The notes beneath the pieces are model-generated. The model did no database searches, had not been told where the DNA came from, and saw nothing but the letters and a program-made list of their open reading frames with translations. The translations under genes were made by a program, and so were the position numbers. Of a DNA stretch of 64,000 nucleotides, positions 1 through 6,479 are shown piece after piece (the stretch's first letter is position 1; each line of letters begins with the position of its first letter). The DNA comes from Alphaproteobacteria bacterium (GTDB taxonomy: Bacteria > Pseudomonadota > Alphaproteobacteria > TMED109). The stretch is taken from contig JAJEGJ010000035.1 in NCBI GenBank assembly GCA_022819905.1, positions 1 through 64,000 on the forward strand, in the 5' to 3' direction.

Positions 1-304
1 GCACGGCCCTGGGCCGAAACCCCACCGCCATGCACGGCATCAACACGACCGGCTTGTGGATAACCTGCGGAGCTTCTGTGCAGAACCGCCGTCAGCACCG
101 AATCACAGGCGAATCACCGCTTGACGCGAGACATGGATGCTGTCTTGAGACTGGCGTGATACAGCACCTCCAGCAACCGAGCGAACTGATACCTTGTTGG
201 TAGCTCCACAGTTCCACCACGACAGTGCCTCAACACTCTTTGCCAACACCACTTCGAGCTAAACGCAATCAACCCCCTGTCTGCATCTCGTTCCCCGTTA
301 TGCA
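1..304. other. Gene-poor stretch downstream of the peptide-modification operon
   Basis: No convincing gene or RNA is seen. On the minus strand a possible 63-codon frame (114-305) begins at a GTG that shares one base with the stop codon of the phosphotransferase-like gene (TAGTG). That arrangement allows coupled translation, but the predicted peptide has no recognisable motif and its composition is unremarkable. No terminator hairpin with a T-run is visible after the operon, so the transcript may run past the window edge. Confidence 0.4.
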
Positions 305-2611
305 CTAGCGCCCCCCCCGATCAACGAGGCGTTCTACATCACCGGTATCGCCGTCTACTCGGATTTCCTCTCCGTCTCCAATGGCGTCGCATACTCCAAG
401 GAGCCCAACGACTGCCGGTAATCCGTACTCACGCGCCACAATTGCCGCGTGCGAGAGCCGGCTACCGTTCTCGACAACTACCGCTGCGACCCGACCGAAA
501 AGGATCGTCCAAGCAGGATTGGTATTCGGAGCCACAAGCACATCGCCGTGCCTCACCTTCGCGAAGTCAGCGATGCCACGTACCACGCTGGCTGGGCCCG
601 TCGCGCTTCCTGGACTCGCACCCAGCCCTGTGAACAATTGCTGGCTCGGACTACACACCTCGCCCAGGAATCCAGCCGGCAACCAACTGCGTTGCCGCTT
701 CCACCGAAGAGCATCCCGACGCGCCTCCACGTTAGGGAACTCCATCCCTTGTACTAGCCCTTTTTGCAGCTCCTCCAAAGTCAGCAGGTCTGCTGTCTCG
801 TTCGGCGGAAGCAATCTCTGCGCCTGCAGGCGTCGTGTACATTCGCTGATGGCATCTCGCAAGACTGGTAAAGGGAGGTTCGCCAGCGATTTTGAGTCCT
901 CCCGAACAACTCTCAGTTCGCGGAGCCGATCAATACACCTATCTACTGCCTCCCATCGATCATCCTTGACCTTCTCTAGAAGTCTCTGCCGCTGCGTTCT
1001 AGCACGTTCCACCCCAACTGCCGTGAGATTACCATCGCGGTTCCCTCCCTCATTAGACTTCGCGCCCGTCTCCACGTAAGCGATCAACTCATCCTTCGCA
1101 CTGTGCGCGACCGTCCCATTAATTTCCATATGGCCGAAGCGGTCGATGAACCGATCAAACTCGCCCATCCACTCCGAGCGGTGTGTCGCAGACGCAGACA
1201 TATGCACCAGCTCTTCCAATGCGATGTTCATCCGTACAGTCTCGTGCTCGACACCTGCACAGAGATCGTCAAGGATCTCCTCTGATACCTCGTCCAAACC
1301 CACAAGGCGAGCTAACTCCTGGGCGCACGATTTCTCGCCATCGATCCACTCGAACATCCCGAGAAGCCGTGTCGACGTCATGTAGCCATGTAACCTGCCT
1401 GTCTCCTCTACAATCTCTAGCAAGGTGGCGGTGTCGACCTCCTGCAACACGCCGGTCCGTTCCTTTAGCGACCCCACTTCCGACCGCCAAATTGGAAGTG
1501 CTGCTTCCACCGTCGATCGTTTTTCATGCCTAGAGGGAGGTCGCAGTTCCGTTCCCGGGTCCACAGCAACGGGGACTTCGTGGAATCGAACCACCGCCGC
1601 ATCGACCGATGGCGCCCCTTCCCCCTCGTCCAACATCGACAAACTGGCTTGCCAGATCTCCCGAGTGAAGAGCCCATAGTCCAGCGGCGTCACCGTTGCT
1701 GGGCAGTACTCATCCCACAAGTGAAAGTACCGACGCTGCAACTCCGTCCACCCTCCTGCAGGGCGGCCGGGCAGGACCCATGGCGGGGGACCGTCACGGG
1801 ACGCGTCGCCGCTTGGCTGGGTCGTGATCGGGCGCGCCTGCAGTATGTGGACCTTTCCCCCCTTGGTTACTGCCCATTCCACGTCCTGAGGTAGGCTGAA
1901 ATGTTGCTCGATCCGCTGAACCATTCCGGCGAGCTCCCGCCAAACGGAGTGCGACGGCGAAGACTCGCCCAGATGATCGATTCGAAGCTCCCTGCCGTCC
2001 AAATCCAACCAGCATCGGCCTGCAATTCGCTCGCCTCCAACAAGTTCCTCACCCAGCCCATCGATCCACTCTGCGAACAGGATATCCGACGACTCGGTTG
2101 CCGGATCACTCGAGAACACGACGCCTGCAAACTCGGCGTCTACCATCCTCTGCACGACTACCGCCATTTGGTTAGGGCACACGCCTCGCGCAGACGGCGT
2201 AGTCTTCCTCGCCGTATAGGCCGACGCATGGCCCGTGTAAGCCGACTTCCAACACTCCCGAACTGCCCCCATCAAGTCTTCGGCCGAATCAACGTTCAAC
2301 ACGCTGTGAAACTGCCCTGCGAAAGATGCGTCAGCCGAATCTTCCAACAGGGCCGACGAACGCACTGCCGCCTTGGAACTGCCGATGTACTTCTCCCATG
2401 CTGAACGAAGCTCGAGTGCAAGTTGCGCGCTTATTGCATGAGGATCACTGTCCAGCTTCCCTATCTCTTCCTGCGCTTCCGCCGCGACAACAAACCCGCC
2501 GGGGACCGGCAGTCCCAACGACAGCATTTCCGCTAAAGCATTGCTTTTACCGCCGAAACGAGAGACGCCGACTGCTTGGGCGAGTGGGACTACTAGCGAC
2601 ACTGTTCCCAA
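305..2611 (-). CDS. Rifampicin-phosphotransferase-like / PEP-synthase-like phosphotransferase, probable RiPP modification enzyme
   Basis: 768 residues. The N-terminal ATP-grasp domain (about 1-265) is of PPDK_N type: GGKSNAL at 20-26, RSSALLED at 84-91, GVVFSSDP near 163-170, and VEWAV...LQARPITT near 244-264. A central domain follows (about 275-665, containing VTPLDYG). The C-terminal swivelling phosphohistidine domain (about 680-765) has SRLSHAAIVAREYGLPAVV, with His721 as the predicted phospho-carrier. There is no PEP/pyruvate-binding TIM barrel. This order (ATP-grasp, substrate domain, His domain at the end) is that of rifampicin phosphotransferase, which moves the beta-phosphate of ATP to a hydroxyl group, rather than of true PEP synthase. 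The gene is last in a four-gene operon and overlaps the preceding gene. The TTG start at 2611 is uncertain; GTG at 2602 is an alternative. Inferred role: phosphorylating the precursor peptide, perhaps at a hydroxyl installed by the HExxH enzyme. A small-molecule substrate cannot be excluded. Confidence 0.75.
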   Translation of the reverse strand: MGTVSLVVPLAQAVGVSRFGGKSNALAEMLSLGLPVPGGFVVAAEAQEEIGKLDSDPHAISAQLALELRSAWEKYIGSSKAAVRSSALLEDSADASFAGQFHSVLNVDSAEDLMGAVRECWKSAYTGHASAYTARKTTPSARGVCPNQMAVVVQRMVDAEFAGVVFSSDPATESSDILFAEWIDGLGEELVGGERIAGRCWLDLDGRELRIDHLGESSPSHSVWRELAGMVQRIEQHFSLPQDVEWAVTKGGKVHILQARPITTQPSGDASRDGPPPWVLPGRPAGGWTELQRRYFHLWDEYCPATVTPLDYGLFTREIWQASLSMLDEGEGAPSVDAAVVRFHEVPVAVDPGTELRPPSRHEKRSTVEAALPIWRSEVGSLKERTGVLQEVDTATLLEIVEETGRLHGYMTSTRLLGMFEWIDGEKSCAQELARLVGLDEVSEEILDDLCAGVEHETVRMNIALEELVHMSASATHRSEWMGEFDRFIDRFGHMEINGTVAHSAKDELIAYVETGAKSNEGGNRDGNLTAVGVERARTQRQRLLEKVKDDRWEAVDRCIDRLRELRVVREDSKSLANLPLPVLRDAISECTRRLQAQRLLPPNETADLLTLEELQKGLVQGMEFPNVEARRDALRWKRQRSWLPAGFLGEVCSPSQQLFTGLGASPGSATGPASVVRGIADFAKVRHGDVLVAPNTNPAWTILFGRVAAVVVENGSRLSHAAIVAREYGLPAVVGLLGVCDAIGDGEEIRVDGDTGDVERLVDRGGR

Positions 2612-3168
2612 CGCTCAAGCCACCGATCCAAAAGAGCGGCCAAATTGGGGTCCTTCCTCGTGAAGACTCGGTCCACAGGAACCGCCCACCGTACTGAAAG
2701 GAATGTCCCATTTGACCGGAATGGTCGCGCATTCCTGTCAGCCGCTTGCCCGAGGGGTCGGAGGTCCGACTTTGGGTGCAGTGCTGCCATCATGAGGCCT
2801 CGCTGCAACAACCATCCGCGTTTCTCGTGGACAGCGTGATCAATTGAGGGGAACTCCCCGCCTAGCAGCGCAGTCAGTGTGTCGGGCCTACTCAACTCAA
2901 CCCCCTTGAACGGGGCGCACCTTTGAAAAATCTCGGCTAGCGCTTCTATCGCCAGCGCCAAACCGCCCTCCTCGAACCAAGATCGCGCGTCCGCCACAAG
3001 GAACCGGCGCCTCCTCACCGATTCTACGGCGTGTCCGCACCAAGGCTGCCCGCCGGCTCCTTGCTCCAATTCTCGGATCAGCGCCGCAAATCGCCTCCTA
3101 GCATCCTCGCGCAACCCAGCGGCGGGCCACGGTTCCAAGACACGCCCGCGCACTAGCTCCCTACCCAC
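2593..3168 (-). CDS. DUF6875-like protein of the peptide-modification operon
   Basis: 191 residues from a GTG start four bases after the stop of the HExxH gene; its 3' end overlaps the next gene. The C-terminal third (about 118-180) has GLMMAALHP, ARPFRSN, SVRWAVPVD and a DPNLAALLDRW tail. From memory this resembles the DUF6875 pattern (GLMIGxFHP ... FRPLRSPxPxLAIRxMVxxD), a family found near natural-product genes; the match was made by eye and is tentative. The N-terminal half has PWCGHAVESVRRRRF and a helical stretch. No signal peptide or membrane segment is seen. Its place between two putative modifying enzymes suggests a third tailoring or substrate-recognition component. The biochemical role is unknown. 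Confidence 0.6.
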   Translation of the reverse strand: MGRELVRGRVLEPWPAAGLREDARRRFAALIRELEQGAGGQPWCGHAVESVRRRRFLVADARSWFEEGGLALAIEALAEIFQRCAPFKGVELSRPDTLTALLGGEFPSIDHAVHEKRGWLLQRGLMMAALHPKSDLRPLGQAADRNARPFRSNGTFLSVRWAVPVDRVFTRKDPNLAALLDRWLERWEQCR

Positions 3169-3172
3169 ACCA

Positions 3173-4822
3173 CTACTGCTGGTAGCCCGCCAGCGCTAAC
3201 TGCAGCTGCTCGCTATGTCGGCCGTAGTGATTGACCGTCTCCTCCAGATGATCCAACAACGTCTTCGTTCGCCGAGTCCGATACGTCTTCAGGAAGGCCT
3301 CCTGCGGCGCTGCACGCAGCGTTGACGACATGAATCGACGAAGCCCGCAGAGCACCGCCACGCTCTCCGCAATGCTGGCCCCGCTCTTGGCTTCGCTCAT
3401 CCAACGATCCCCATCGTAGTGTGGAAACGCCGGTCCCTTGGCTTCTCCTAGCACGCTTAATGACCTATAAGCAGCAACGACTTCGCTATGAACAAGGTGG
3501 TCGACAATCTGCGCCACATCGGTTTCCGTCCTGTCAGCAGCAGCCTCTTGTATCGCCACCGAGGCGTACCCTGACTGATCCAGCGTGTTCAACTGACCCT
3601 CTATCTCCTGCGTTTCACGGTCGTAGCAGTCAAGCAACAAACGCCTGAAAACCGTGACGTCGTCCTCGTGTCCGAACGTCGTCAACACGTCAGTCAGCCA
3701 GGTCACGAGCTGCCTCCCATCTGGACCAAGATCAGCTGAATCTGACCTAAGCTTCGCGCCCAGATAAGTCGCCCGATCTAGCGATCTGGTTCGCTCCTTA
3801 TGAAACGAGGGCGGGGGGGCGCCGAACCGGTGACACTCAACATTTGTTGCAACGGCCATTTCGAAGAACAACGCCAAATGAACGTATACATGGAATGCGA
3901 ACAGTGCCCGGTCCGTGGACCAGTTCGCCGAATTCCACGAGAAATGCCGATTCCAAGGTGCGCGAATCAAGCGTGCATTTTCACTGTCGAACCCTTCTCT
4001 AAACACGGATCTCGTCAGAACAAGATCCGACAACTTCTTGTGTGCGGCCTCGTGGAGCAGAGCTTCAGCCGCATGCCATGCCGTCCTTAGCGGGCTCGGC
4101 GACAGGAATACAGTGGAGGGTATTGCGTGCGTACTTACGTTTTGACAGACATCCGAGCGCGTCGGCTTGCTCCACTGCGATCGGTCACTTGTGTCCAGAA
4201 TAGCTACCAGACGAACGTGCTCGATCAACGACGACCATAGTTCGGGCGCTAACTGTGCCAGAATCTCCTCGCCTTGCTTCAATCGCTCTCGAAGCTCCGA
4301 CGATGGCTCCCTAAGTACAACTCTTCCTGAGGAGACGCCATCCGCAATCTCTCGATCAAAGAGCGCTTGAAAGTAGCTGTCCATCGCCCCGGGTGCCCCG
4401 TTGGGGTCCCAAACGTCGAAGTCTGTGCGACCGTGTTCCCCAGAGCGAATAGGCGTAGACGAGATGAGTGTCGCCGTACCCGTGCCAGCCAGTTGGTTCT
4501 GAGCCAGCGCCAAGAAAACCGCACGGTCTCCATCACTAACTTGTGATCGCCCTTCCTTGATGCCGAACAGCGCATTGTTGATGGCCCGCCGGACCACTGG
4601 CCCTGATAGACCACTCGACCTGATGCCTGATTCGCCACTCATGGCGTCTAGCGCTCTTGCCGCACTCACCTCGTACTTGGCTACTACATCTATCCCACGG
4701 GAATAATAGAGTTCTGCACGGCGTCGGATGTTTGAGCTATCCCCGAACACGGGATGGGACGCAAGCTCACTCTCAACTGTCCTTTGCACACCCGGTACCA
4801 TCTCAACCAACCCAGGACGCAA
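3173..4822 (-). CDS. HExxH-motif protein, putative Fe(II)/2-oxoglutarate-dependent peptide beta-hydroxylase
   Basis: 549 residues. LLHEAAHKKL places the metal-binding HExxH at His257-Glu258-His261. About 50 residues later come RAPWNRHF and AFHVYVHLALFFE, where His311 (or His315) is a candidate third ligand. This pattern (HExxH-K-L, then PW, then an HxYVxLAxFFE helix) is that of the family first named HEXXH motif domain and now annotated as aKG-HExxH-type peptide beta-hydroxylases, which act in RiPP pathways. Despite the motif it is not expected to be a protease. The N-terminal 200 residues and the C-terminal helical region (about 350-549) are unassigned. It lies 79 bp downstream of the precursor gene and 4 bp before the next gene. 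The start is uncertain: TTG at 4822, or ATG at 4801 (residue 8). Confidence 0.75.
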   Translation of the reverse strand: MRPGLVEMVPGVQRTVESELASHPVFGDSSNIRRRAELYYSRGIDVVAKYEVSAARALDAMSGESGIRSSGLSGPVVRRAINNALFGIKEGRSQVSDGDRAVFLALAQNQLAGTGTATLISSTPIRSGEHGRTDFDVWDPNGAPGAMDSYFQALFDREIADGVSSGRVVLREPSSELRERLKQGEEILAQLAPELWSSLIEHVRLVAILDTSDRSQWSKPTRSDVCQNVSTHAIPSTVFLSPSPLRTAWHAAEALLHEAAHKKLSDLVLTRSVFREGFDSENARLIRAPWNRHFSWNSANWSTDRALFAFHVYVHLALFFEMAVATNVECHRFGAPPPSFHKERTRSLDRATYLGAKLRSDSADLGPDGRQLVTWLTDVLTTFGHEDDVTVFRRLLLDCYDRETQEIEGQLNTLDQSGYASVAIQEAAADRTETDVAQIVDHLVHSEVVAAYRSLSVLGEAKGPAFPHYDGDRWMSEAKSGASIAESVAVLCGLRRFMSSTLRAAPQEAFLKTYRTRRTKTLLDHLEETVNHYGRHSEQLQLALAGYQQ

Positions 4823-4878
4823 TGACAGCGGCGACCTCGCTACAAGGCAGGATGCTCACCGGCGTCTACATTTTTTCC

Positions 4879-4903
4879 CGGGCAAGTCAGCCCGCTTAGG
4901 GCT
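4879..4903 (-). promoter_or_regulatory. Two mutually exclusive hairpins just after the precursor gene
   Basis: In the mRNA sense, AGCCC at the precursor stop can pair with GGGCT (4899-4903 with 4889-4893, 5 bp). The alternative is CGGGC pairing with GCCCG (4890-4894 with 4879-4883, 5 bp, 6-nt loop). The two stems share 4890-4893, so only one can form. An A-run, not a U-run, follows, so this is not a classic terminator for the operon. It may be a processing or stability element that raises precursor levels over enzyme levels. The stems are short and chance formation is possible. Confidence 0.3.
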
Positions 4904-5144
4904 AACCGCGCGGACCTCCTCTCGGCGGCTTCTCAGTTGCAGGCGCCATGTGATGATGTAACCCAAGGCGCGCATTTCCGACCAGCTTCAATGGGTCCAC
5001 GTCGGGCGCGTCCTCTACACCGTCATCACCATCCGGATCCGTTTCGCTTGTTGCCGGTGCCATGTGGTGGTGCAACGCCAACCGCGCGTTGCCGACTAGC
5101 TTCAGGGGGTCGATGTCTTCATCGAGCGTAACGTGCTTCGTCAT
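4902..5144 (-). CDS. RiPP precursor peptide with two 21-residue histidine-rich core repeats
   Basis: 80 residues. A short leader MTKHVTLDEDI is followed by core 1 (residues 12-32), an acidic spacer (33-49), core 2 (50-70) and a basic tail EKPPRGGPRG. Each core reads DPLKLVGNARL, then Ala (core 1) or Gly (core 2), then LHHHMAPAT. The ATG at 5144 is chosen over an in-frame upstream TTG at 5201 because GGAG lies 8 nt before the ATG and the TTG is part of a TTGACA promoter box. There is no signal peptide, no cysteine and no serine or threonine cluster of the lanthipeptide kind. It is the first gene of the operon, ahead of the HExxH enzyme, the DUF6875-like protein and the phosphotransferase. It is too short and repetitive for an enzyme, and it keeps its amino acid sequence while codons diverge, which supports a real peptide substrate. 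Family not recognised. Confidence 0.8.
   Translation of the reverse strand: MTKHVTLDEDIDPLKLVGNARLALHHHMAPATSETDPDGDDGVEDAPDVDPLKLVGNARLGLHHHMAPATEKPPRGGPRG
4935..5111 (-). repeat. Duplicated core-peptide coding repeat (2 x 63 bp)
   Basis: The repeats occupy 5049-5111 (core 1) and 4935-4997 (core 2). Codon by codon, 13 of 21 positions use different synonymous codons, one differs in amino acid (GCG Ala against GGG Gly), and seven are identical. The DNA has diverged far more than the peptide, so this is an old duplication under strong selection on the product rather than a recent tandem copy. Confidence 0.9.
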
Positions 5145-5152
5145 CTGACGAA

Positions 5153-5156
5153 CTCC
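5153..5156 (-). promoter_or_regulatory. Ribosome binding site of the precursor gene
   Basis: GGAG with an 8-nt spacer (TTCGTCAG) to the ATG at 5144. It decides the start codon in favour of the 80-residue form. Confidence 0.75.
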
Positions 5157-5173
5157 AAAGTTAGGATCCTTGT

Positions 5174-5201
5174 AGTATGACGTTTCAATTTGCTTTGTCA
5201 A
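5174..5201 (-). promoter_or_regulatory. Sigma70-type promoter of the RiPP-like operon
   Basis: On the minus strand a perfect -35 box TTGACA (5196-5201) is followed after 16 bp by CATACT (5174-5179, four of six matches to TATAAT). Transcription would start near 5167, giving a leader of roughly two dozen bases that contains the GGAG site. The region between the two boxes is AT-rich compared with the rest of the window. Confidence 0.6.
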
Positions 5202-5615
5202 TCATCCTTGTCCCCATCCGCGCCATTTCGTGTACTGGACAATCCTCCTTCAGGGCGGGTCGTAGCGGTCGGCGCCTAGTGTTTCGATTTTGAAGTACGA
5301 GAAGCTTTAAGATGATGTTCTTGTGGGATTAGCCACATGATCGTTTAATCCTCTCGTTCGGGACACAGTCTAGCCTCTTTATTGGGCCCGGCCCTGCATG
5401 GCATTCATTCGTATCGGAGGCACAGGACGCGACTCTGCGCCATCAGGGCGTACAAGTGTGCTAATGACTTACCGATGTCCTGGTATGCGATGAACGCTCA
5501 CTCCCTAGGTGTTGGAACGCGCGAAAGAACAGCAGGGAGTGTGGACTTTTTGTCCAGAGATTCAATGTGTTACGTAGGTTCTCCCAGTCGCTTGGAAAAT
5601 TAGAGTGGTTCACGG
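5202..5615. other. Intergenic region upstream of the RiPP-like operon
   Basis: About 414 bp between the operon promoter and the 3' end of the DUF1989 gene. It is less GC-rich than the genes to its right. No convincing coding region, tRNA, transposase remnant or flanking direct repeat was found. A plus-strand frame at 5382-5603 has no supporting motif or ribosome binding site. Confidence 0.5.
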
Positions 5616-6479
5616 TCATCCGTCGCCGTGGCCGCCGTTGTACCCGCTGGGCCGAGCCGGACGCCAGCCTGCCAGGTGATCGTCCTGCGGCCGGAAGATC
5701 TCTACGCCCAGCGGATGGCAGATGGCGCGGCCACTCGAATGACCGACGCCGCAATCGCCACCGGGGCAGGTGGATAGCGCGGCCACCAGGTCGATCTCCG
5801 CAAACAGCTCGATGTAATCGCCGGCCCGGGCGGGGCTTGCCTTCATGAAGTACTGGTTGGTGTCGCGCCGGAAGCCGGTACACATGAACAGGTTCACCAC
5901 GTCGTGCACGAGCATCTCTGCCTCGCCCAGCGAGAGGCCCCGCGCAGCGGCCAGCGCTCGAGTCAGGTTCGAATGACAGCAGTAGTGGTAGTCCGCGCGC
6001 GTCAGGAGATGGTTGGTGTAGGGATCGCAGCGCGTCCCGATGACGTCGTGGACGCCTGCTCCGAACTCGTCAATCCCATACCAATCGAGGGTGTCGCGGG
6101 TAATCGTTGCCATCGGGCGCAGCCACGGCAGGTTGCTCCACAGGCGATCGCCGGTGCTGACGTGCGTGGCGTGGAGCGCTCGCGTCTTCCCGCTGTAGAA
6201 GCGTTCCGACAGGTCATCCGCGTTCCACAGGTTCAAGTCGCCCACCTGCGGGCCATCCACGGTGGTGATGCGGAAAAGGTGACCGGCCGGCACGCGGAAC
6301 GAGCGCGCATCTCGAGGCGGCACGGTCAGCGCGTGCACCAAGGCCATACCGCTGCGAACGGTTTCGTAGAACGTCCGGTCGTAGGGCGGCAGACGGTCCA
6401 GCGAATAGACCGTCACGGGCCTTACGGCACGCCGCGCAGCTGCATCCGCCGGCTCGGGATGTTGCGCGGATTGCATCAT
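5616..6479 (-). CDS. DUF1989 (urea carboxylase-associated) family protein
   Basis: 287 residues. Family features seen include VPAGHLFRITTVDGPQVGDLNLWNADD (split around residues 64-90), SGKTRALHATHVSTGDRLWSN, and a Cys/His-rich stretch with CCHSNL and NLFMCTGF towards the C-terminal half. DUF1989 proteins are often encoded beside urea carboxylase, aminomethyltransferase-like or transporter genes; their reaction is not settled. It follows a five-gene peptide-type ABC importer on the same strand after a gap of 228 bp, so it may act on the imported compound. The start ATG at 6479 is immediately followed by a second Met. Confidence 0.75.
   Translation of the reverse strand: MMQSAQHPEPADAAARRAVRPVTVYSLDRLPPYDRTFYETVRSGMALVHALTVPPRDARSFRVPAGHLFRITTVDGPQVGDLNLWNADDLSERFYSGKTRALHATHVSTGDRLWSNLPWLRPMATITRDTLDWYGIDEFGAGVHDVIGTRCDPYTNHLLTRADYHYCCHSNLTRALAAARGLSLGEAEMLVHDVVNLFMCTGFRRDTNQYFMKASPARAGDYIELFAEIDLVAALSTCPGGDCGVGHSSGRAICHPLGVEIFRPQDDHLAGWRPARPSGYNGGHGDG

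Follow-up and report, generated by a model that had tools for sequence, protein, structure and literature searches.

The window, meaning the whole analysed stretch of 64,000 nucleotides, carries near its left end a tight operon on the minus strand, whose first gene (4902..5144, 80 residues) contains two tandem repeats. The product of this small gene is very probably a precursor with two units that enzymes then modify. The gene is present in a single copy in its own genome, and its most likely start is ATG 5144, with GGAG upstream; an alternative TTG start at 5201 is covered by a promoter-like site (TTGACA-16-CATACT, 5174..5201, minus strand). This sigma70-like site is a consensus match only, agreeing at 10 of 12 positions, and it is weak, since one was found where 0.4 are expected in shuffles. 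The peptide ends in EKPPRGGPRG, which is not repeated. The gene itself ends 80-100 nt upstream of the next one, and the RNA stretch between the two is not unusually stable on folding (z -0.90).

The next gene (3173..4822, minus strand) encodes an aKG-HExxH-type peptide beta-hydroxylase with a C-terminal DinB_2-like domain; its start is listed as TTG, with ATG at 4801 also possible. The protein scores 47.1 bits against TIGR04267, above the cut-off of 40, and its HExxH motif, HEAAH, is intact in an alignment of 21 sequences (20 others). Additionally, ChlH, whose structure has been solved (8s5f), is matched by a profile built from five sequences of the HExxH type (E 3.3e-5). Pfam and NCBIfam scans found no radical SAM domain in this protein, and no close homologue was seen in the genome-contig collection, viral contigs or 289 genomes of the class (own included).

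Four nucleotides further on lies a gene (2593..3168, minus strand) for a DUF6875-like protein, a possible heme oxygenase. Its Pfam match of 21.8 bits is below the gathering cut-off of 24.5, and in an alignment with members of the family its Cys and N..RP..R segments line up; no such protein was found in plasmids. DUF6875 proteins have been identified as heme-binding and oxidise L-tryptophan, according to PMC13307353. Structure models made without an alignment gave pLDDT values of 35.5 for the HExxH protein and 38.1 for the DUF6875-like protein. The last gene (305..2611, minus strand) overlaps the DUF6875-like gene by 19 nt and encodes a phosphohistidine dikinase, in which the PPDK_N and PEP-utilizers domains alone were found; the protein ends after the His domain and thus has no PEP/pyruvate domain. 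From its domains we take this layout to be Rph-like. No transporter gene was seen. Searches with the precursor, HExxH, DUF6875-like and dikinase proteins (phmmer) against 28 neighbourhood loci returned no locus with more than one of them, and such a set of tailoring enzymes beside a precursor is uncommon.

Repeats, shared motif and histidine runs

The two repeats, each of 63 bp on the minus strand, encode DPLKLVGNARLALHHHMAPAT (repeat 1, 5049..5111) and DPLKLVGNARLGLHHHMAPAT (repeat 2, 4935..4997). The first-pass annotation had counted 13 synonymous codon differences and a single Ala/Gly exchange in 21 residues, and our recount of both repeats is identical: 14 codons differ, 13 synonymously and one nonsynonymously, while seven are the same. 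At the nucleotide level there are 15 differences, distributed over codon positions 1, 2 and 3 as 2, 1 and 12. By the Nei-Gojobori method the pair has 16 synonymous and 47 nonsynonymous sites with Sd of 13 and Nd of 2, the latter with a two-step Leu codon averaged over its two paths; this gives pS 0.81 (dS saturated) and pN 0.043. Since the binomial P is 1.1e-6, with 12 of the 15 changes at third positions, the pattern is not a product of chance. Moreover, near-identical peptides arise from the repeats only in the minus-strand reading frame, and the other frames diverge more, several with stops. These values support the earlier claim of an expressed peptide under selection at the amino-acid level. 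The conservation rests on one intragenic pair, since no homologous precursor was found, either in the 398 genomes of the phylum (own included), viral contigs and plasmids or, by short peptide patterns, in the genome-contig collection.

For comparison, a set of HExxH neighbourhoods was assembled from 16 loci in the 398 phylum genomes, four plasmid-record loci and the window. A TIGR04267 scan of those genomes, own included, had matched 18 at E 0.001, 15 of them above the cut-off; two weak matches (G395 and G394) were left out. Short ORFs just upstream of the HExxH genes in five loci (L048, L049, L050, L052 and L053) have [IL][DE]xxK[LM]xG in common. Over 39 loci, the pattern [ILV][DE]xxK[LM]xG occurs in 6 of 24 ORFs upstream of HExxH genes (the window and these five) versus 0 of 2,055 other short ORFs, an enrichment that is partly circular for the five other loci because the pattern was written after the peptides had been seen. 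The V in it comes from the second copy in the window, and the first copy fits without it. Shuffles of the window peptide matched the motif in 363 of 200,000 cases. Two of the motif loci, L049 and L050, belong to the same genus, and of the 20 HExxH loci besides the window, 15 have no short upstream ORF with the motif.

The window precursor carries this motif twice, once at the opening of each repeat: IDPLKLVG (5091..5114, minus strand) starts one codon before repeat 1, and VDPLKLVG (4977..5000, minus strand) opens repeat 2. The residue following the motif Gly is Asn rather than Phe or Tyr. Judged from sequence, (I/V)DPLKLVG is probably the recognition site of the enzyme, and the core is probably the C-terminal ten or so residues of each repeat, that is, the putative cores ALHHHMAPAT (5049..5078, minus strand) and GLHHHMAPAT (4935..4964, minus strand). 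Each repeat thus probably combines a recognition motif with a core, since the motif is common to other HExxH-linked upstream ORFs. The first-pass annotation had treated all 21 residues as core; we rejected this in favour of motif plus core, because the opening segment, (I/V)DPLKLVG, matches the motif of other HExxH-linked precursors. Tandem repeats occur elsewhere, since the L053 ORF (8300-8506) combines the leader motif with a DLGRLFSKRG / ELGRLFSKRG tandem repeat; it adjoins a gene for an AMP-binding, PP-binding and thioesterase protein. In L052 (7760-9595), a cyanophycin-synthetase-like ATP-grasp protein adjoins the HExxH gene and the motif-bearing short ORF.

HHH occurs in 3 of 24 ORFs upstream of HExxH genes (the window, L003 and L060) versus 12 of 2,055 other short ORFs, and the enrichment persists when the window is left out (2 of 22, P 0.009). 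Among the 20 HExxH loci outside the window, only two are preceded by a peptide with HHH. Published aKG-HExxH enzymes hydroxylate Asp and His (PMC12636437), and the sites listed for the family are His, Asp, Phe, Gln and Pro (PMC13060819). Because published enzymes of the family hydroxylate His and HHH is enriched in the upstream ORFs, the His residues of HHH would be a good but unproven candidate for the hydroxylation site. The earlier proposal of HHH as a modification site is therefore credible, given the adjoining hydroxylase and the two further HExxH-linked peptides that contain His runs. One of these ORFs, in L060 (8545-8850), has a hydrophobic, signal-like N-terminus and both HHH and HHHH runs.

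Insertion site and the far arm of the island

The operon belongs to an inserted island of low GC, of which the window holds the right arm (1..5623), delimited by GC, GC3 and comparison with relatives; host synteny resumes at 5624. Specifically, operon GC is 0.55-0.61 versus 0.66-0.71 in the windows just beyond, and GC3 is 0.62-0.66 versus 0.81-0.87. Among 30 relatives, the neighbouring DUF1989 gene is present in six, which all belong to the same genus, and in the five of these that were compared homology ends at 5624 (5686 in one). These relatives show an empty site where the island sits, with a common dms-type operon (dms as read from translation) on its far side. The corresponding end in the own genome is at position 5420 of contig C53, whose positions 1-5419 are likewise low in GC. 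From this synteny we infer that C53 and the contig of the window, C13, are linked, although the two do not overlap. A 141-base contig-edge repeat (1..141), common to contigs C57 and C30 and in part to C20, breaks the assembly at the start of C13.

The arm on C53 holds a DUF3419 gene truncated by the end of the contig. With it are genes for an HTH protein, a TldD-type peptidase and an Eco29kI-type restriction enzyme, and one with a weak match to a DNA methylase. The peptidase matches the PmbA_TldD C-terminal domain PF19289 with 110.7 bits, and N-terminal domains were not detected. If the two arms are colinear, the DUF3419 and TldD genes share their strand with the precursor operon. A search of the own genome for the missing half of the DUF3419 gene, or for a contig overlapping the C53 end, found only C53 itself. 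In a Roseinatronobacter plasmid (L082, 1428-4935), genes for UbiA, a dikinase and DUF3419 follow one another, and the DUF3419 protein matches the own fragment (E 3e-6). The dikinase there adjoins DUF3419 in a different setting, which includes UbiA and also an AMP-binding enzyme. The genes for the restriction enzyme and the putative methylase (C53, 3633-5012) share the island with the peptide cluster.

Proposed pathway, alternatives and known systems

We consider it likely that 5144-4902 encodes a RiPP precursor of two tandem motif-core units that is hydroxylated by the HExxH enzyme, further tailored and trimmed by the TldD-type peptidase to two near-identical products. The translated precursor would present two units, each with (I/V)DPLKLVG followed by the His-rich (A/G)LHHHMAPAT. 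The aKG-HExxH enzyme would dock on each KLVG motif and hydroxylate the adjacent core, most likely at His beta-carbons. The DUF6875-like protein might perform a second, heme-based oxidation, and the dikinase might act on the peptide in an ATP-driven reaction, phosphoryl or nucleotide-coupled. The DUF3419 protein would perhaps transfer an aminocarboxypropyl group, the activity of BtaA. Finally, the TldD-type peptidase may trim the peptide, so that each precursor would yield two near-identical products. The order of modification is likewise a proposal, as are the chemistry, export and bioactivity of the product. One extension, which we think improbable, is a peptide metallophore, in which consecutive His residues of each core would be beta-hydroxylated and then receive aminocarboxypropyl from SAM (DUF3419) and/or phosphoryl (swivelling-His dikinase). 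Such a product would presumably be a ribosomal counterpart of the nicotianamine/staphylopine-type chelators.

Several other explanations were weighed against a modified peptide. A plus-strand ORF of 64 residues (4937-5131) overlaps the precursor gene, as might be seen with a chance ORF or antisense artefact, yet the concentration of changes at third positions of the minus-strand frame, the motif and the operon context make this probability negligible. The near-saturated pS in so short a tandem pair could alternatively arise if selection disfavours slippage or deletion between direct repeats in the DNA, in place of an old duplication followed by drift. We regard this as unlikely, though the least so of the alternatives; it leaves the conservation of the peptide unexplained and, concerning the codon pattern only, is compatible with the precursor reading.

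The gene product might instead stay unmodified and serve as a small His-rich protein with a metal-binding or regulatory role, the enzymes having another substrate. HHH alone is a plausible metal site, no homologue shows a product and no transporter was seen, but the adjoining HExxH gene belongs to a family known from RiPPs and the motif is common to other HExxH-linked short ORFs, so that we hold this to be rather improbable. Still less probable is a carrier (scaffold) role, in which a small molecule is built on the peptide and cut off, and the peptide is recycled. RiPPs of this kind reportedly exist (attributed to Ting, 2019, and Yu, 2022), and a dikinase and DUF3419 are unusual for a RiPP; against this, all 21 residues are conserved in both copies and there is no conserved attachment terminus, EKPPRGGPRG being unrepeated.

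The precursor reading also compares with described systems. The rSAM-aKG-HExxH pair ChlBH of Chlorogloeopsis (Nat Chem 2024, as cited in PMC12636437 and PMC13060819) includes a hydroxylase of the same family, with Asp and His as its reported sites, and its hydroxylation requires a preinstalled cyclophane. In contrast, the scanned window genes have no radical SAM domain, and the window enzyme has its DinB_2-like domain. In the pfl/pos clusters of Pseudomonas, the aKG-HExxH enzyme (PflC/PosC) adjoins the precursor gene, as in the window; however, their nitrile-hydratase-like leader and MNIO-nitroreductase were not seen in the window, and its precursor has neither the Gln run nor the ARMD C-terminus of the PflA/PosA subgroup. 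The biphenomycin bpm cluster pairs an aKG-HExxH hydroxylase with a TldD-type peptidase, as does the own genome, but has an MNIO, a B12-rSAM enzyme, an arginase and an FHAFRF core that are absent in the window. Rph rifampin phosphotransferase and PigC-type dikinases combine ATP-grasp with a swivelling phosphohistidine domain and have no PEP/pyruvate domain, like the window dikinase, which nevertheless scores far below their NCBIfam cut-offs (208 vs 999 bits and 227 vs 1300, respectively), its middle domain being unmatched.

A literature search, mostly outside subscription journals, found no described system of this make-up, and the best reading is a new aKG-HExxH RiPP variant with tandem recognition-core units. 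According to PMC13060819, aKG-HExxH (and MNIO) chemistry is not yet predictable from sequence. A precursor with a recognition motif per unit, shared with other HExxH-linked peptides, lends itself to testing how substrates dock. For the peptide modifications suggested by the dikinase and DUF3419 genes, the literature search found no RiPP precedent, and a new natural product could come from the island cluster. Within our own set, L003, from an S. xanthophaeus plasmid, resembles the window in a short ORF with HHHHH before its HExxH gene, as does L060 with HHH and HHHH; neither shares the recognition motif, and phmmer found no dikinase in them. Conversely, L048, L049, L050, L052 and L053 share the motif, but once rather than per unit, and they have no HHH and other partner genes.
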